Part shown: piece by piece, positions 3,232-9,940 of the stretch
Numbering within the stretch: the stretch's first letter is position 1
How the letters are laid out: each line of letters opens with the position of its first letter
Virus record (IMG/VR): IMGVR_UViG_3300043661_000106
Span: 1-23,985 of that record
DNA from: a virus
Reading direction: 5' to 3' (one strand)
Length of the DNA stretch: 23,985 bases
Made by a program: the position numbers and the translations under genes
The notes under the pieces: generated by a model
Databases searched by the model: none
The model's input: only the letters and a program-made list of their open reading frames with translations
Told to the model about the DNA's origin: nothing

Positions 3232-3429
3232 ATGATTCGCCGAATTTTAATCGCGCTCACGGTTCTATGGTCGCTGTGGTGTCTCGTTTTGATGACCGGC
3301 GTTAAGAACGCTGAAGGCCGCCGTGAATGCTTCATTCTGATCGCCGGTGGATGGGTGTTGTGCACAGTACTCTGCGTTCTGTGGCGATTTATCACGGGTG
3401 CGCCATCTGCGAAAGCGGCGCAGTCTTAG
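3232..3429 (+). CDS. Small two-TM membrane protein on the opposite strand
   Basis: A 65-residue protein with two predicted transmembrane helices: residues 5-22 (ILIALTVLWSLWCLVLMT) and about 34-54 (FILIAGGWVLCTVLCVLW), joined by a short charged loop (KNAEGRREC). An AGGGG lies about 8 nt before the ATG. It is the only convincing gene inside the window on the plus strand. Its start lies 66 nt from the divergent fibre gene, and its end overlaps the 3' end of the ejection-protein gene by 38 nt (convergent). It could be a lysis, superinfection-exclusion or moron-type protein. None of these is shown by the sequence. Confidence 0.6.
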   Translation: MIRRILIALTVLWSLWCLVLMTGVKNAEGRRECFILIAGGWVLCTVLCVLWRFITGAPSAKAAQS

Positions 3430-4753
3430 CCATCTTCACGATTTCCGCCGGTGTGTGGCCTTTAGCCAGAAGTTTCTTGAAAGCTTGTTCGCGACCGATT
3501 GAACCTTCCCCCGCAAACTTCGAGTTGGACACCGTGGTCTGTCCCATGTCTTCGCCAGAATTGATCAGTGCCTGTCGCAAATCCACGCGTGTTAGGTCAT
3601 GAATCGCCTTCAGTGTGTGTTCGTCTTCACCGGCCGCATCAACGATGTCCTCACCGTTGGCGTGGACCATCTGCCGCATGCCCGCGTTCGGATAGAGTCT
3701 TTCAAGGCGAGCTTTGGCAGATTCTCCTTCTTCCGAGCCACCCATTTGCTTTTCTACTTGGTCGGTAATTGTTGCGGGCAGCTTTTCTGGAGCGACGGTA
3801 CGCGGCGCAGTTCGCGTTGCAACATCGCTGCCGGGCGTGCCGCGGGTAAGTTGCTGGCGCAGCGCTTTGGTCTTATCCAGCGGCTGCGCCGCGTTCGTGG
3901 CTGCGTCCACGATTTCGTTGACGGTCTTCTTCGGCGCTGCAGCGGCTGCGGCCGGCGCTTCTTCCGTTCCAGCTGTAAGCAGTCCCGCCGGCGGCCGCAC
4001 TAGCACAGCGCCTTCCGGAAGCGCGATCTTTCCCGTGGTCGGCGTTGCCTTCACAGGTGCAGCTGCAGCCGGCGCGCCGACTCGTTCTGGCAGAATTTCA
4101 CCAGGTCCGCGGCGAATGCTTGGCGGTGGCTTCGGTTTGCCCACACCTTCAAATGGAGTGATCGCCTTTTCCGCTTCCGAAGTGTCGAAGGCGTCGGCCG
4201 GAAGATCGATCTTTCCAATATCGGCGAGCTTGACCACCTTCTTCGCGGTTTTGTAGCCAGGAACTTCATCGAGCACGGCATCGGTCGCCATTTTCGCCGC
4301 AGCGCGCACGGTAGGCGACTTCGCTACGTTCACGGCCGCATCTTCTAGCGCCGCGCCGGACGCTGCACCGCCAGGCGCGCCAGCGACCACCTGCGTCACC
4401 GGATTATTGACGATGCCGGTGTCGGTTCCGAGCGGTTTGCCGGCCGATTTCCCACCGAACAGAAGTTCTTTCGTGCCGCGCGCGAGATCTCCCATCTGCG
4501 CCAGCACCGGGTGTTCGCTGCGACCAGATTGGGTGAGGTCTTGTACTTTTTGAAGCGCATCAAGCGGGTGAATTCCACCGGCCGCGTTCCCGGCGTCGTT
4601 CGGGTCTGTGCTGTCTGCGGCTGGCGCGCTGATTGTCGCAGTTGGCGCCTTCAAGCCGGGCACGCTTCCGGACACCAACTTCGCGCCTGGTGGAAGCTTC
4701 GGTACGTACGGCAGCGTTCCGCTTACGAGTGTCGCGCCTGGCGGCAGTCCCAT
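3392..4753 (-). CDS. Internal virion / DNA ejection protein candidate (Ala/Pro-rich)
   Basis: A 453-residue protein, rich in Ala, Pro, Lys and Glu and probably largely disordered. The N-terminus has two near-identical decapeptides, LPPGATLVSG (3-12) and LPPGAKLVSG (20-29), and a weaker copy (LPEGAVLVRPP) follows in the middle. The C-terminal third is more ordered and helical (ARLERLYPNAGMRQMV, HTLKAIHDLTRVDLRQAL, FKKLLAKGHTPAEIVKMA). It starts one base after the preceding ejection-type gene. Position and composition match the last of the P22-type ejection proteins (gp7, gp20, gp16 group), which are poorly conserved. No lytic transglycosylase motif was recognised. The assignment rests on synteny and composition. 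Confidence 0.6.
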   Translation of the reverse strand: MGLPPGATLVSGTLPYVPKLPPGAKLVSGSVPGLKAPTATISAPAADSTDPNDAGNAAGGIHPLDALQKVQDLTQSGRSEHPVLAQMGDLARGTKELLFGGKSAGKPLGTDTGIVNNPVTQVVAGAPGGAASGAALEDAAVNVAKSPTVRAAAKMATDAVLDEVPGYKTAKKVVKLADIGKIDLPADAFDTSEAEKAITPFEGVGKPKPPPSIRRGPGEILPERVGAPAAAAPVKATPTTGKIALPEGAVLVRPPAGLLTAGTEEAPAAAAAAPKKTVNEIVDAATNAAQPLDKTKALRQQLTRGTPGSDVATRTAPRTVAPEKLPATITDQVEKQMGGSEEGESAKARLERLYPNAGMRQMVHANGEDIVDAAGEDEHTLKAIHDLTRVDLRQALINSGEDMGQTTVSNSKFAGEGSIGREQAFKKLLAKGHTPAEIVKMAKTAPLSQMAHP

Positions 4754-4754
4754 T

Positions 4755-6407
4755 TTAGGAAGGTGCCTTCACTAGCGTGTAGTTCTTCATGTCGGCCGTG
4801 TCGCCCGAGCCGCTGTACTGATAATTCTTGCCACCCAGCGCGATGATGTGCCCACCAGCACCTGCACCACCACCGGCCGGCGCGCCGCGGTTGCTCTGGC
4901 CGTACATGTTCTGCAGCACGGAGTTATTTCCGATGCGCGACTTCACCTGGGAATCGACCGAATCCCTGAATCCTTCCAGCGCACCGTCTCTTGCTTCCGG
5001 ACTCGCCTTCGCCGGCGCGAGCGACATAATAAACTTCTGCATTCCTTCCGTGCCTTGCCCGCCGCCAGTCACCTTCGCGTAGTCGTCGGCCACGCCGATC
5101 AAAGTGGCGGCGTAATGCGCCACGGGGCCCGAGCCGGTTTGCGCTTTGTAAATATCGGCGATGCTGTTCCATACGGGCAGTTCGCCTTGCGGCAGCTGCT
5201 TGCCGATCGCCTTTAGCTGATCGATCGTGCCGCCCGGGTCGGTCATGGACTTGGCCGAACCGAAGAAGGCCACCTGCGCCGGCGATTTCGCAACGGTGAA
5301 GTCCGCATCGGCTTTTGCCGGCGACCATACTTTTCCTTCCGATGCCGCCAGCGCTTTTGCTTCGGTCAGCGCCTTCTCGGCGAATTCCGGTTTGCGCGAT
5401 GAAATGATCATCGACGGTGGCGTGTCGCCATCCACGAGCAGCCTGGCTGCGGCTTTCGGGTCGCCGTCGGTGATGGCTTGCTCGGCCGCTTTCTTTGCTT
5501 TGTCGATGGCCAGTTCATTCGCTTGTGAAGAATTCGCCATTCCCAGCAGCTTCGTTGCGCGCACGGCCGTCTGCGGGTCGTTCGACTTGGCCATGGTCTG
5601 CAGAAAAGCTTTCGATGCCGGCAGCTTGTCTCCGGAAAAAGCTTCGCTCGGATTGGTTTCCATCTTCAGCAGCGGGTCCGCGGTGGTTGCGTTGTCGAGC
5701 TCCTTCTTCCAAACATCGGCCGACTTCGTGCGGTAGTCCACGGCGGCCTGTTCTGCGCCCACGCGGTTGGTGAAGGCGTCGAAGTTCTGCACGTTCAGCT
5801 TCGGAATGATGCCGGCGACGTTGGGGTCGCCTTTGGTGATCTCAGCCAGCTGTGGCTTCAGCGCTTCGATCATGGCCGCTTTTTTCACCGGGTCCTTTTC
5901 CGCCATCACCGGCGCGGCGAGGTCCTGCAGCTGCTTGATAGAAGCGAACATTACCTTCTGATGTTCGTCGGTGGCCTGGTCCACGGACTTCCGAAATTCT
6001 AGCGTGGCTTTGGCGTCCTGAATTGCCGCCATGCCCGGCACGCCGGCCTTCATCTGGCCGTGAACCATCGCAAGAATCGGGTCGTCTGCAGCGACGCCCA
6101 ACATCGTCGCGACTTTGTCGTTACCGGGCGCCGTGGCTGGATCCGTCGCGAAAGTTTCCGGAGCGGACCAGTATTTGTTCTGCGCCTGCATCGTCTGCAG
6201 CTGAATCTGCTGCATTGTGTTTGCCTGCTGGGACGACTGAACTTTCGCTTGCGCTTCCTGCACGTCGAGTGGCGCGAGCTGCTGGCGTAGTGCCGTGTCG
6301 CTTTGCATGTTCTTCAGGCTTGCGAGCTTCGTGGCCTGGTCCACGGGGTTGGCCACGTTCGGTGCCGTGGGGTTCAGATTCGCTAGCGTTGGGAGTTGAA
6401 AAGGCAT
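4755..6407 (-). CDS. Internal virion / DNA ejection protein candidate (helical)
   Basis: A 550-residue protein. The N-terminal 80 residues are Gln-rich and helical (KVQSSQQANTMQQIQLQTMQ), followed by a long, mostly helical Ala/Lys-rich body (about 100-480) and a Gly-rich linker with a short Tyr-rich end (GGKNYQYSGSGD). Length, helicity and placement between two other ejection-type genes suit P22 gp20/gp16-like proteins, which are packaged in the head and ejected to help DNA cross the envelope. Direct similarity to a named family was not seen. It starts 7 nt after the preceding gene, with GAGGACACA just before the ATG. Confidence 0.6.
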   Translation of the reverse strand: MPFQLPTLANLNPTAPNVANPVDQATKLASLKNMQSDTALRQQLAPLDVQEAQAKVQSSQQANTMQQIQLQTMQAQNKYWSAPETFATDPATAPGNDKVATMLGVAADDPILAMVHGQMKAGVPGMAAIQDAKATLEFRKSVDQATDEHQKVMFASIKQLQDLAAPVMAEKDPVKKAAMIEALKPQLAEITKGDPNVAGIIPKLNVQNFDAFTNRVGAEQAAVDYRTKSADVWKKELDNATTADPLLKMETNPSEAFSGDKLPASKAFLQTMAKSNDPQTAVRATKLLGMANSSQANELAIDKAKKAAEQAITDGDPKAAARLLVDGDTPPSMIISSRKPEFAEKALTEAKALAASEGKVWSPAKADADFTVAKSPAQVAFFGSAKSMTDPGGTIDQLKAIGKQLPQGELPVWNSIADIYKAQTGSGPVAHYAATLIGVADDYAKVTGGGQGTEGMQKFIMSLAPAKASPEARDGALEGFRDSVDSQVKSRIGNNSVLQNMYGQSNRGAPAGGGAGAGGHIIALGGKNYQYSGSGDTADMKNYTLVKAPS

Positions 6408-6414
6408 TGTGTCC

Positions 6415-7227
6415 TCATTGCTGGCCGTAGACCGTCGGCGCCAGCGACGCCATCGGCGAATAACCCGCAGCAGAATCCATGCTGCCCGTGTTCGGCGTTG
6501 CGCTGCCGAAGCTCAAGCCGCTGCCGCCCATGTTCGACAGCATCGCCATGTTGCTCATGCCGCCGAGTGCGCCGGTAACTGCGTTGGAAACGCCCATGGT
6601 GCCCTGCGCTTTCGCCGCGCCTTCTTGGCCGTAAAGCGAAGCGATGTCGCCGCCCATGCCGGTCGTGATATTGCCGGCAGCGTTCGCCGCGCTGAGCCCT
6701 TGCGCCGATTGCCCGGCCAGCATGTTGTACTGGTTCTGCTGGTTGTTCAGGAACTTCTGGTAGGCGTCTTGGTATTGCGTCTGCGCGTTGCTGAACGTGT
6801 TTTGATAGTTCGTCGAAGCCACGCCCTGCGCGTAGTTGTTCATGCCCGCGAGCGTGCCGCCGGAAAGAAGTCCGCCCTGCGCGGCCGCGGAATTCTGCAT
6901 CGCATTTTCGCCTTGCTGCAGCTGGAACTGGTAGCCAGGCGTCGCGGCCGCCTGCGCTGCGGTGGGCGCTTTGAAATTTCCGCTGAAATTGGCCAAGAGT
7001 CCTTGGCCCGGCGTTGAGAGCATCTGCGAAAGAGTTCCGGACGCCGCCGTGCCCGCCGCCTGGTAAGGCTGAACGCCCGCCAGCGCCTGGGTTTCCGAAG
7101 TTCCCAGCTGCTGCTGGGCCTGCTGCATTCCCTGCTGTTCTTCCTGGGAAGCTTTGGACGAAGAGCTCGCGCCGAAGATGCCGCCGAGAAGGGAAGCGCC
7201 TGCTCCGATTGCGCCGGTGATGCTCAT
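6415..7227 (-). CDS. P22 gp7-like DNA transfer/ejection protein
   Basis: A 270-residue protein. The N-terminus is a Gly/Ala/Ser-rich hydrophobic stretch (ITGAIGAGASLLGGIFGA) followed by a Gln-rich segment. The central part has TPGYQFQLQQGENAMQNSAA, then GGLLSGGTLAGMNNYAQGVA, a signature common in phage DNA-transfer proteins of the gp7 type. Many short Gln/Asn/Ala repeats and Gly-rich membrane-active segments follow. In P22, gp7 is packaged in the head and ejected with the DNA. Its ATG overlaps the GNAT stop (ATGA). The assignment rests on recognised composition and the central motif. Confidence 0.7.
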   Translation of the reverse strand: MSITGAIGAGASLLGGIFGASSSSKASQEEQQGMQQAQQQLGTSETQALAGVQPYQAAGTAASGTLSQMLSTPGQGLLANFSGNFKAPTAAQAAATPGYQFQLQQGENAMQNSAAAQGGLLSGGTLAGMNNYAQGVASTNYQNTFSNAQTQYQDAYQKFLNNQQNQYNMLAGQSAQGLSAANAAGNITTGMGGDIASLYGQEGAAKAQGTMGVSNAVTGALGGMSNMAMLSNMGGSGLSFGSATPNTGSMDSAAGYSPMASLAPTVYGQQ

Positions 7228-7730
7228 AGGAATTTACACAGCGTATTGTCCGTGTGCACCCAGTCCAGCGCTTTCAAGAATGGTGTTTGATCGTGCGCGA
7301 TTTTGCAGCTGGTAATCATCATCGTCACTCCGCGAGCGCGCATGTCGCGCTCCCAACGTAGAAAAAGCTTGAGCCCCATTCCGTGACGGTCGTCGGGATG
7401 CATCCAGTACATGTCGGTGACCGCCTGTTCGCCGGAAGATTTATAGTGGAAGTGGGGCATGACGAAAGACATCAGGTAGCCCACGAGCTTTGCGTCCTGC
7501 CGCGCAGTCACCAGGTAAAACATCTTCAGTTTCTCGAGCTGCGCGTAACGCTCTTTGTCGAGATCGATCTTCAGCTTTTCCCGATTGACGCAGAGCTCTA
7601 GCCAGTGCTGGTACATCAGCGGTTCAGCGTCGGACCAGAAGTCAGCGAGCGCTTCGCGCTGTAAGGTAATCAGCGCAGTCGCCGATAGTTTCGAGGTCGT
7701 CGATCGCAATGTTTGGGATGTCGAGCTCAT
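7224..7730 (-). CDS. GNAT-family acyltransferase
   Basis: Up to 168 residues. The GNAT core is clear: KMFYLVTARQDAKLVGYLM (central strands), TDMYWMHPDDRHGMGLKLFL carrying the R-x-G-x-G acyl-CoA pyrophosphate-binding loop, then the helix LRWERDMRARGV and the late strands MMITSCK and FLKALDWVHTDNTLCKFL. A YQHWLEL motif with the following charged helix matches GNATs seen in other phage late operons. The start is uncertain. The ATG at 7730 overlaps the acyl carrier gene by 89 nt, whereas homology would start the domain near residue 20, where only a CTG is available. The acceptor is unknown. Sitting beside an acyl carrier protein, it could use an acyl-carrier rather than an acyl-CoA donor (inference). 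Confidence 0.8.
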   Translation of the reverse strand: MSSTSQTLRSTTSKLSATALITLQREALADFWSDAEPLMYQHWLELCVNREKLKIDLDKERYAQLEKLKMFYLVTARQDAKLVGYLMSFVMPHFHYKSSGEQAVTDMYWMHPDDRHGMGLKLFLRWERDMRARGVTMMITSCKIAHDQTPFLKALDWVHTDNTLCKFL

Positions 7731-7854
7731 GCAAAAATTCCAGAAGTTCCAGACTGTCGAGACCCAGGGTTTCGAGACGCGTGGTGCGCGTGGCGCGCAC
7801 GCCGAGGTCGTTCCACAGCTTTTCGAGAACGGTGTCTACAGTCAGCTGCTCCAT
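7642..7854 (-). CDS. Acyl carrier protein (phosphopantetheine-binding)
   Basis: A 70-residue protein with acyl carrier architecture: helix I at about 2-17 (EQLTVDTVLEKLWNDLG), a loop, then the attachment motif LETLGLDSLELLEFLHELD with Ser34 in the D-S-L triad that receives 4'-phosphopantetheine, and a third helix near the end (TIGDCADYLTAR). Length is slightly below the usual 75-80 residues because the acidic loop after helix II is short. The ATG overlaps the stop of the tail-region gene upstream (TGATG), and the 3' part overlaps the GNAT frame. No ketosynthase or phosphopantetheinyl transferase is in the window, so host enzymes would have to charge it. Its partner is not known; the adjacent GNAT is the obvious candidate. 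Confidence 0.85.
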   Translation of the reverse strand: MEQLTVDTVLEKLWNDLGVRATRTTRLETLGLDSLELLEFLHELDIPNIAIDDLETIGDCADYLTARSAR

Positions 7855-8390
7855 CAGAATTCCGACACCATCAGCTGCGACCCGTTGATCAAGTTCAGCG
7901 TGTCGCCGTTCGGACCGTTGACAACGAAATAATAAATATAGGGCGTGGTCGAGCTCAGGCCTGAGTCAATCACCGACATCGTGGCGGGCGTGACCACGCC
8001 GGCAGCGATCGTCCCGCCACCAAAAGCATCGCTGCCCACGATGACGTCGCCGGCGTTCGGCGCCGCGCCTTTGGCCGGAATAGCGCCCGTCGTGCGATAC
8101 ACGAACACGTAGTAAATGCCCGCCGTGTTCGGCTTGAGCGAAACGCGCGCTTGCACCTGATGCTCGCCGTAGACTGACGGCGTGATCGGTCCGGTGCCAA
8201 CTCCGGTGGATTGCTGGCCGCCATTGCAAACCACCGCCGTGGCGTTGGTGGAAATAGTGACGCGGTTGTTCACCGGCCTCGCGATGACGTCGGAAAGAGT
8301 CTGCAGGAAGCGCTTCCGCGTGAAGCCTGCGCCGGCTGGGTCCTTCAGGTCCCATTCCGTTCCGATGGTTGGAAGCAGCTGCTGCGGCAT
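7854..8390 (-). CDS. Beta-rich tail/virion protein, unknown family
   Basis: A 178-residue protein. A helical start (residues 20-40, TRKRFLQTLSDVIARPVNNR) is followed by beta-rich sequence with many Thr, Val and Gly residues (QVQARVSLKPNTAGIYYVFV, TTPYIYYFVVNG, LINGSQLMVSEF). It lies immediately after the gp10-like gene (TGATG overlap), where P22 encodes the tail needle gp26. It lacks the long heptad-repeat coiled coil expected of gp26, so it is not an obvious needle. A tail plug, adaptor or small fibre subunit is possible. It is also translationally linked to the acyl carrier protein downstream. Confidence 0.6.
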   Translation of the reverse strand: MPQQLLPTIGTEWDLKDPAGAGFTRKRFLQTLSDVIARPVNNRVTISTNATAVVCNGGQQSTGVGTGPITPSVYGEHQVQARVSLKPNTAGIYYVFVYRTTGAIPAKGAAPNAGDVIVGSDAFGGGTIAAGVVTPATMSVIDSGLSSTTPYIYYFVVNGPNGDTLNLINGSQLMVSEF

Positions 8391-9940
8391 CAGCTGACCG
8401 CCAGGTATTTACGCGCCAAGCGGTCTTGGCCGCTCTCCGTGGGATTGATGTAAGCATCCGCGATGCGCCAGGGAATCGGGTCGGACACCACAACCTTGGG
8501 CGTGAAGCTTGCCCAGCTGCCCAACCGCCGATCGATCGCAGCGACCTTAGAGTTTCCCGCCTTGCCGCACGCGATCATGCGGTCCGGCGTCCAAGTCTTC
8601 CCGAAGTCCTCGGAATAGGAGAACACCGCGTAAGGGTCGCGCGGGTTTCCGAAGCCGTCGGTCAGCGGCGGCTGCGGTCCCAAACCGGTTTCGAAATCGA
8701 CCTGAAATTCGTTAATCGGCATGGGATTCTGGCTGCTTTCCGCCGAAACCGTCGGACCGATACGCGTGCGCACAATGGGCGTCGAGATGCCGATGCCGGT
8801 CATTTCGCTCAAGTACTGCGTGGACATCGAATACACGTTTCCAGAGTTGCGGTCGCCAACCAAGTGGAGTCCAAAGTTGTAGGTGTGGCAGCGCGCGAGA
8901 TGCGCGCCTTGGCCCTGCACGCCTTTGATGATCGAACTCATGCGGTGCCACATGTTGAGATCGACGTCCAACCGCCAGGTCGCGTTCGCGGTCGGAAACC
9001 ACAGCCAATAAAAATTATGGCCGTTTTCCTGCGTGGCGAAGCCCACCGCGTCGGTGATGTTGACCTTCTGCGACTGCATCCAGTATTCGAATCCGTGATC
9101 GGAAACGCGCGTCGCGGTTTGTCCAGCGGCGGCGAAGACCATGCCCGCGCCGCGTTCATCGCCACCCAGCCAACAGATGGTGGTGCCGTTGGCGGTCGCC
9201 ACACGCGCGACGGAGTACTGCGCGAGGATGCCCACTTCCATGAAGCCGCCGTTCAGCACCGCGAACGGAAAGATCGGAAGCCCGGCGTTGTAGTAAGCCA
9301 CCGCGCGCTTGGCGCCGAAGACCCATAGCAGCCGGTTGGTCGCGATAATCGCAAGCAGCTGGTCGGAGAACACCGACACCTGCGAAACGGAAAGTCCGGT
9401 CCAGGTCGTCGCGTCTTCGGGATTCGAGATCTGGAAAATATTGTTTGATTGCAGCGCGACGAAGAAGCCGTCCAGGTAGTCGATCATCAGAATGTTTGCT
9501 GGCGCTGCGGTGATGGCGGCGAAAGCGTTGGTGGCCAGCAGGAACACCGTCAGCGTTCCGCCCGAAGCGATCGCGAGCTGGCCGGGATAGATGCCGCCGG
9601 CGGTTCCGCCGCCGATCATGGTCACCGGCAAGCCGTCGTTCAGGATGTTGTTATTCGCCGTCGCGGGATTTCCGCCGTAGTCGGTCAGCACGCCGTTGGC
9701 GGTGAGTTCGTACAGGTGCGTGCCGCCGACCACGAAGGTGCGGCCGCTAACGGTGCAGAAGCCGCGTGGAATGCCGCCGGCCAGCGTGGCAAAGAGCGAC
9801 AGTCCAGGCGTCGGCAGCAGAGCCCAGGCGGTGCGCGCGCTGGACGATTCCATCTGCTCGGGATACCAGTTAATGCTAAGTTCAGCATCCGCGAGCGGGG
9901 TCTGCGGCTGGTAAGTTCTGCCACAAAATCCGAATCTCAT
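8390..9940 (-). CDS. P22 gp10-like packaged DNA stabilisation protein (tail hub)
   Basis: A 516-residue protein (P22 gp10 is 472). The N-terminus shows the family pattern: NWYPEQMESSSARTAWALLP, then TPGLSLFATLAGGIPRGFCT, and GRTFVVGGTHLYEL. Repeated beta-blade-like segments follow (ILMIDYLDGFFVALQSNNIF, NRLLWVFGAKRAVAYYNAG). The later CWLGGDERGAGMVFAAAG and FYWLWFPTANATW segments also fit the Phage_stabilise family. In P22, gp10 binds the gp4 ring, closes the portal channel and carries the tail needle and spikes. It follows the gp4-like gene by 1 nt and overlaps the next gene by 1 nt. Confidence 0.85.
   Translation of the reverse strand: MRFGFCGRTYQPQTPLADAELSINWYPEQMESSSARTAWALLPTPGLSLFATLAGGIPRGFCTVSGRTFVVGGTHLYELTANGVLTDYGGNPATANNNILNDGLPVTMIGGGTAGGIYPGQLAIASGGTLTVFLLATNAFAAITAAPANILMIDYLDGFFVALQSNNIFQISNPEDATTWTGLSVSQVSVFSDQLLAIIATNRLLWVFGAKRAVAYYNAGLPIFPFAVLNGGFMEVGILAQYSVARVATANGTTICWLGGDERGAGMVFAAAGQTATRVSDHGFEYWMQSQKVNITDAVGFATQENGHNFYWLWFPTANATWRLDVDLNMWHRMSSIIKGVQGQGAHLARCHTYNFGLHLVGDRNSGNVYSMSTQYLSEMTGIGISTPIVRTRIGPTVSAESSQNPMPINEFQVDFETGLGPQPPLTDGFGNPRDPYAVFSYSEDFGKTWTPDRMIACGKAGNSKVAAIDRRLGSWASFTPKVVVSDPIPWRIADAYINPTESGQDRLARKYLAVS

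Follow-up and report, generated by a model that had tools for sequence, protein, structure and literature searches.

It is not settled how the ejection proteins of phages acquire membrane activity, nor how their ordered exit from the capsid comes about. In the HlyC and CdiC systems, as the available text of PMC8510554 sets them out, a small acyltransferase, whose gene neighbors that of a delivered membrane-active protein, draws its acyl group from an acylated acyl carrier protein (acyl-ACP). Here we describe a locus in a 23,985-base virus record of a short-tailed phage (IMG/VR record IMGVR_UViG_3300043661_000106; this whole stretch is hereafter the window, and its numbering is used throughout), in which a gene for a predicted acyl carrier protein (ACP) adjoins one for a predicted GNAT-fold acyltransferase, directly upstream of the gene for a P22 gp7-like ejection protein, EJ1. 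The likeness to HlyC/CdiC would be one of logic only, namely acyl-ACP-fed lipidation of a delivered protein, and it differs in that HlyC uses acyl-ACP from the cell, whereas this phage brings its own ACP. An earlier note on this DNA, made from its letters alone, had offered HlyC as the clearest precedent; the analogy of logic stands, but the HlyC family profile did not match the window's GNAT, for which Acetyltransf_1 was the sole Pfam report at E <= 10. VIA-align placed no HlyC-type structure among the 50 matches listed for the GNAT, which excludes nothing. The locus poses a direct question: does the GNAT use the neighboring ACP as its acyl donor, and on which virion protein does the acyl group end up?

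The GNAT alone is a frequent neighbor of ejection or tail genes, as is partly known in print. The available text of PMC6775973 describes a GNAT of marine podoviruses with internal virion proteins B/D on one side and tubular proteins A/B on the other and proposes it as a possible counterpart of T7 gp13; the Cobavirus/SIO1 pc40 GNAT is likened to the window's enzyme on that published description. The GNATs of Pseudomonas phage PfAn1, Caudoviricetes sp. ct2os315 and the Zobellviridae records are homologous enzymes, belonging like that of the window to PHROG 1249. The ACP profile finds no ACP in the stretches examined from podovirus GNAT records, whereas the window adds an ACP of 70 residues directly upstream.

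Phage ACPs are uncommon, as the earlier note had held, though known. Those of Erythrobacter R6L, Olleya Harreka_1, Brevundimonas Bajun and Xanthomonas XF1 (PHROG 5934) are, like the window's ACP, small and equipped with a phosphopantetheine-type motif, and for Alteromonas phage R22Y the authors, in the available text of PMC11705849, interpret the ACP as a host-metabolism gene. The window's ACP is shorter than six other phage ACPs, to which it is 21-25% identical (30% to E. coli AcpP). None of the six has an annotated tail or ejection gene as its neighbor, whereas the window's ACP belongs to an ejection-side cluster; for one of the six, that of L085, a major capsid gene is found ~0.9 kb downstream. 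Four genes following other phage ACPs were scanned against Pfam and yielded one RusA nuclease, three proteins without a match and no GNAT. Among the matches listed in a literature search, judged by title and the start of the abstract and with subscription journals mostly outside its range, there was no published description of an ACP-GNAT pair at an ejection locus. What is new here is a second lineage of the pair, a count of its rarity, a swappable gene slot and evidence on the folds.

The ACP and GNAT genes

The head, packaging and ejection genes of the window all lie on the minus strand and, read along the genes, run terminase, portal, scaffold, major head protein, the head closure protein Hc3 and EJ1. 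Three genes stand between Hc3 and EJ1: a small gene (HYP), the ACP gene (7642-7854) and the GNAT gene (7224-7730, 168 residues). EJ1 follows at 6415-7227; its product begins MSITGAIG and matches PHROG 598, 'DNA ejection', at E 9.3e-23. The junctions read directly as TGATG at HYP/ACP and ATGA at GNAT/EJ1. GNAT and EJ1 overlap by 4 nt, and the ACP and GNAT frames share 89 nt if the listed GNAT ATG is used. The true GNAT start may be later, because residues 1-20 are poorly modeled (pLDDT 57 and 66 per block of ten) and aligned relatives mostly start some 18-20 residues after the listed ATG. The ACP stop lies near GNAT codon 29, so some overlap of the two genes would persist unless the start lay so late as to remove the first strand of the fold.

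The 70-residue product of the ACP gene carries its phosphopantetheine-type site at Ser34 (codon AGT at 7755-7753) in GLDSLELL, in which GLDSLE fits the (G/A)xDSL context. Its matches to Pfam PP-binding (PF00550; E 0.0041, 17.8 bits, below the cut-off of 20.8) and to PHROG 5934 (ACP; E 0.026) are weak, and neither is therefore secure alone. Searched by phmmer against solved structures, it found an ACP as the top match (E 0.0042), and a profile built from 22 other viral ACPs, with the window's own excluded, scored it at 20.0 bits (E 4.6e-6). Across 19,274 scored shuffles of its residues, the highest score with that profile was 11.6 bits, and among the 214 open reading frames (ORFs) of the window only the ACP matched it at E <= 1. 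The 22 sequences had been fetched by a short D-S-L pattern from an alignment that included the window's ACP, and they also formed the alignment for its fold model; the D-S-L columns are invariant in the 23 aligned viral ACPs, themselves fetched by a pattern containing D-S-L. A tblastn search of 50,697 phage records with the window's ACP gave no match at E <= 1.

With the ACP alignment as input, AlphaFold predicted four helices (6-17, 34-43, 48-51 and 57-69; pLDDT 88.7), and Ser34 falls at the start of helix II, as in the ACP fold. Most of the 50 Foldseek matches listed for this model are named ACPs, the best by TM score (0.77, probability 1.00) being an ACP bound to AcpS; the lowest E was 7.2e-3, and none of the matches listed reached E <= 0.001. 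By alignment, helix II lacks some six residues relative to that of E. coli AcpP, so the protein appears to be a reduced ACP. The shuffles, the predicted fold and the recurrence described below rule out chance or annotation error, and the 22-ACP profile, the predicted fold and the recurrence together confirm 7642-7854 as the gene of a predicted acyl carrier protein.

The GNAT gene product matches PHROG 1249 at E 2.9e-6, and its score with Pfam Acetyltransf_1 (PF00583), 17.4 bits, lies below the cut-off of 20.7. Its model (pLDDT 90.9) aligned by VIA-align to GNATs with Z up to 16.6 (3fix_A, rmsd 2.4 over 141 residues), and Foldseek gave 287 matches at E <= 0.001. Y62, R77, Y85, H95, Y96, D106, R115, G134 and K143 are invariant in the 29 aligned members, the window included; H95 and D106 among them are of the residue types that make up the His/Asp catalytic dyad of HlyC-type enzymes. 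L113 and L155 were excluded from the GNAT alignment A11, the stretch referenced for each containing a stop. The canonical GNAT pyrophosphate loop reads R/Q-x-x-G-x-G/A. In most of the 28 relatives the loop after R115 reads R-x-G-x-x-(G/A/P/F), and in the window it is RHG-MG, one residue shorter than in all 28. Scans of cellular genome contigs with GNAT alignments found no cellular relative. Family match and predicted fold thus confirm that 7224-7730 encodes a putative GNAT-fold enzyme of the PHROG 1249 family, whose donor is not readable from sequence or fold.

The coordinates, strand and overlaps first given for the ACP, GNAT and ejection genes are all correct, and the calls of a 70-residue ACP with a D-S-L site and of a GNAT have been borne out by the evidence above. 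The profile searches proposed alongside those calls gave a divided result, with matches to the 22-ACP profile and to PHROG 1249 but with both Pfam scores below their cut-offs.

Occurrence of the pair and of its members

A second ACP-GNAT pair was found by an ACP alignment scan of IMG/VR, in L175, L179 and L180, which count as one lineage because their DNA is 100% identical over the stretches compared. Its gene order is that of the window (Hc3, small gene, ACP, GNAT, EJ1, EJ2), with overlaps of 4 nt at both ACP/GNAT and GNAT/EJ1, and the D-S-L site is kept in the ACPs of both lineages. The co-occurrence that the earlier note had suggested looking for in other phages is therefore seen, with the pair again before EJ1. 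The two carriers are far apart, since their Hc3 proteins are 36% identical, against 75% between the window and its nearest relative, L014; the ACPs and GNATs are 34% and 36% identical, respectively. The same pair at the same place in a second lineage makes a chance neighborhood unlikely.

The pair is rare. In IMG/VR, at least 572 relatives of the GNAT were confirmed, with 80 loci kept, and 80 of 117 viral ACP loci were kept; these came from alignments only, scans with the single ACP or the single GNAT protein having given no confirmed relative, and alignment scans detect only sequences that fit their patterns. A GNAT of the PHROG 1249 family, the one GNAT family searched for, stood beside a viral ACP at 3 of the 80 ACP loci, all of one lineage, and was not found at the other 77 within up to 4 kb on each side (11 of the 80 offer less than 1 kb on one side). 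Conversely, the ACP profile found no ACP at any of the 80 GNAT loci outside the two pair lineages; one of these 80 loci offers less than 400 nt upstream. A permissive ACP search of 191 upstream ORFs at these loci also found none (best E 7.9, at chance level), and their short upstream ORFs contain no D-S-L-like motif. More pairs may have been missed, because the GNAT of the second lineage does not fit the GNAT search pattern used. The pair is thus rare yet present in two distant lineages at one place. The free GNAT tree separates the two ACP-linked GNATs, pairing the window with L170, and L176 with L097, at weak support, and a tree holding both together is 2.13 log units better (p-AU 0.545), so that an ACP-linked clade is not resolved; the trees do not distinguish shared descent, transfer and repeated assembly of the pair.

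Without an ACP, the GNAT mostly keeps its position. Relatives were present in 18 phage records, of which 11 stretches were inspected. In PfAn1 and ct2os315 the gene directly after the GNAT matches the EJ1 profile, and in the Zobellviridae records the GNAT lies amid head-completion/closure or tubular-tail genes, before large unnamed proteins. The neighborhood in Limnohabitans DC33 and Variovorax VPv81 is without useful annotation, and in Podoviridae sp. ctQRb9 the gene instead follows the terminase. At the 80 IMG/VR loci, EJ1 was directly downstream in 47, a contig edge in 2 and another or unresolved gene in 31. The GNAT precedes proteins of 807-1330 residues with a hydrophobic N-terminus in L111, L123, L125, L139, L150, L160 and L164; the one scanned among these seven, that of L125, is a lambda J-like tail protein (phrog_31). 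In L170 (3365-4447) a GNAT in the same slot as that of the window forms one open frame with an N-terminal region of ~200 residues. The earlier note had taken either gene alone in unrelated positions as a sign against the unit; this is what was found for the ACP, whereas the GNAT alone mostly remains before an ejection or tail gene.

In the window's own clade, the slot between Hc3 and EJ1 is swappable. Of 35 IMG/VR relatives collected by Hc3, 29 were readable there (L017, L018, L022, L023, L044 and L048 were unreadable). The slot held a short GNAT-like gene in 11, a sulfotransferase gene with a small gene in 5, a small gene alone in 3 and nothing in 7; the three singletons are L043 (weakly GNAT-like), L046 (its sole slot protein, of 152 residues, does not match the small gene of the window) and L047 (a GNAT of 121 residues). 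None of the 29 matched the window's ACP or GNAT at E <= 1e-3. The short GNAT-like proteins comprise 117-123 residues; of three scanned against Pfam two gave weak GNAT matches and one none, and the short GNAT aligns weakly with the GNAT family (hhalign probability 58%). The sulfotransferase genes (L029 4246-4824, L034 10505-11080, L035 10393-10971, L036 6659-7219 and L038 10405-10986) are each followed by a small ORF of 65-134 residues, and the two scanned, from L029 and L035, matched Pfam Sulfotransfer_3 at E 3e-10 and 5e-10. On the Hc3 tree of 30 rows, from which L047 was excluded for its unclear EJ1 start, the distribution of six slot labels takes 14 changes, against a minimum of 5 and a mean of 16.8 after shuffling. 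By these profile matches, the slot appears open to group-transfer enzymes of other kinds, both short GNAT-like and sulfotransferase.

Candidate functions of the pair

An ACP adjoining a GNAT points to acyl chemistry at the ejection apparatus. Our tentative reading, in which we have somewhat less than even confidence, is that the two constitute an acylation unit that the phage encodes and produces along with its ejection proteins, and that acts on a virion protein; as first interpreted in the earlier note, such a unit is partly supported. From the two protein identities, which profiles and predicted folds provide, the close packing of the genes and the recurrence, we infer a course of arming, loading and transfer, a target and an effect on infection. 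The phage ACP would be armed at Ser34 by a phosphopantetheinyl transferase of the host and charged with an acyl chain by the host's fatty-acid enzymes, for the adjoining GNAT to pass on to an amine of a virion protein. EJ1 would be the likeliest recipient; its N-terminus, hydrophobic and rich in Gly and Ala, is expected to insert into the envelope of the host. EJ1 is the first candidate because its gene is adjacent and overlapped and its product membrane-directed; P22 gp7 is listed in the available text of PMC8954989 as the equivalent of T7 gp14, an outer-membrane pore protein. The recurrence of the pair in a second lineage hints that some phages may chemically modify their injection machinery. 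Indirect support comes from the GNAT family at large, which stands immediately ahead of EJ1 at 47 of 80 IMG/VR loci; the other group-transfer enzymes in the slot, the nine invariant GNAT residues and the HlyC/CdiC precedent also speak for the unit. A bolder form, which we regard as decidedly unlikely, is that some podoviruses lipidate their own ejection machinery, with a fatty acyl group passing from ACP through GNAT to the first-ejected outer-membrane pore protein, perhaps at the small N-terminal residue left by removal of Met. This would be a virus-encoded analogue of N-myristoylation within a swappable modification slot, filled in relatives by a short GNAT or a sulfotransferase.

A small residue follows Met in 34 of 37 clusters of proteins encoded after a GNAT, as against 110 of 148 other ORFs, and the N-termini are hydrophobic (mean Kyte-Doolittle 0.95 versus -0.12, p 6.6e-14), a pattern that spans unrelated gene families. 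These clusters lack phylogenetic independence, and EJ1 shows the pattern even where the slot is empty, so it tells no more than the type of the neighboring protein. L163 was without a gene downstream; the downstream gene of L166, though doubtful, was kept in the counts. EJ1 starts M-S in both ACP-GNAT lineages. Across the slot survey, its residue 2 follows the slot, being M-P in 20 of 20 loci with a filled slot and M-(G/A/S) in 8 of 8 with an empty one (L046 counted as empty, L047 left out as in the tree). Independent tree pairs agree in 4 of 4 cases, a number too small for significance (p 0.125), and hitch-hiking of adjacent DNA is the simple explanation.

Several observations weigh against the ACP and GNAT forming an acylation unit. 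The absence of an ACP at 80 of 80 GNAT loci and of the GNAT at 77 of 80 ACP loci speaks against a strict unit and indicates that the GNAT can work without a phage ACP. Since the family is normally without an adjoining ACP, its usual donor is probably acetyl-CoA, and the structural matches listed for the window's GNAT are mostly CoA-using acetyltransferases. No lineage beyond the two carried the pair in the DNA searched, and the ACP-linked GNATs do not resolve as a clade. Across 11 more distantly related GNATs, invariance is limited to E45, G84, R115 and G134, and the second-lineage GNAT is without H42 and E45. The shortened helix II of the ACP could weaken partner recognition. Finally, the hydrophobic N-terminus of EJ1 cannot be taken as a mark of modification, because relatives without a slot gene have it too, in 7 of 7 empty-slot loci, and the value of hydrophobic N-termini as evidence is weakened to that extent. 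An ordinary acetyl-CoA-dependent acetyltransferase that modifies an ejection or tail protein, perhaps N-terminally, with the ACP a separate passenger inserted beside it, would accommodate the GNAT loci that are without an ACP, the small second residues and hydrophobic N-termini downstream, and the presence of a ribosomal-protein-alanine N-acetyltransferase (7n1l) among the structural matches. A passenger ACP would, however, hardly have come to rest twice at one junction, with one gene order, in lineages so far apart, and we consider this alternative unlikely.

The place of the pair in the genome bears on two other proposals. A takeover of the host's acylation or lipid metabolism during infection, or modification of a host protein, would agree with the six phage ACPs found away from annotated tail and ejection genes, L085 among them, with the host-metabolism reading of the R22Y ACP (PMC11705849), and with the available text of PMC7552054, in which a phage GNAT, Rac, reportedly targets the RNA polymerase of the host. 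Both pairs, however, lie inside the late morphogenesis cluster and overlap an ejection gene, where products usually serve the virion; an action on the host is accordingly judged improbable. ACPs do act as structural, non-catalytic partners in other complexes, and the pair could be of that kind, with the ACP a partner or chaperone and the GNAT fold a morphogenesis scaffold in place of T7 gp13 or P22 gp14. The genes of T7 gp13 (PF11090) and P22 gp14 (PF11039) occupy the same site as the GNAT, directly before the gp14/gp7 gene (L013 1308-1724; L258 1412-1867), and a correspondence of the GNAT to T7 gp13 was suggested in PMC6775973. The GNAT was nevertheless not detectable as a homologue of T7 gp13 (hhalign probability 0.3 and 0.4%, E ~0.17-0.18) or of P22 gp14 (0.9%, E 0.058), weak tests with 1-5 phage-side sequences, and the nine residues invariant in 29 of 29 GNATs, as expected of an enzyme, together with the D-S-L kept in both pair ACPs, make a scaffold the least probable of the readings weighed here.

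Neighboring genes

Hc3 (8390-9940, minus strand) is a head closure or packaged-DNA stabilization protein by its match to PHROG 578 (E 4.8e-69). The small gene that follows it, HYP (7854-8390, minus strand), overlaps the ACP gene by one base; it gave no PHROG match at E <= 1 and a Pfam match at chance level only. The earlier note had the ACP coupled to a tail-region gene: the TGATG coupling stands, but the partner follows head-closure Hc3 and has no profile that would place it in the tail.

Beyond EJ1, two further genes on the minus strand complete a putative ejection set. EJ2 (4755-6407) is assigned by position and is without a secure profile match, and EJ3 (3392-4753) is assigned by position only, without a profile match. 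A special link of the pair to one type of ejection module was considered and rejected, as the window's EJ2 is closest to those of L038 and L030, then L029 and L176, and the slot holds a sulfotransferase in L038 and a short GNAT in L030. The ejection module appears as a mosaic: the C-terminal half of the window's EJ2 is 52% identical to that of L176, though Hc3 is 36% identical. Beyond the ejection genes, at 1234-1467, the window encodes a small helix-turn-helix protein that matches the sigma factor family PHROG 3282 (E 1.5e-6).

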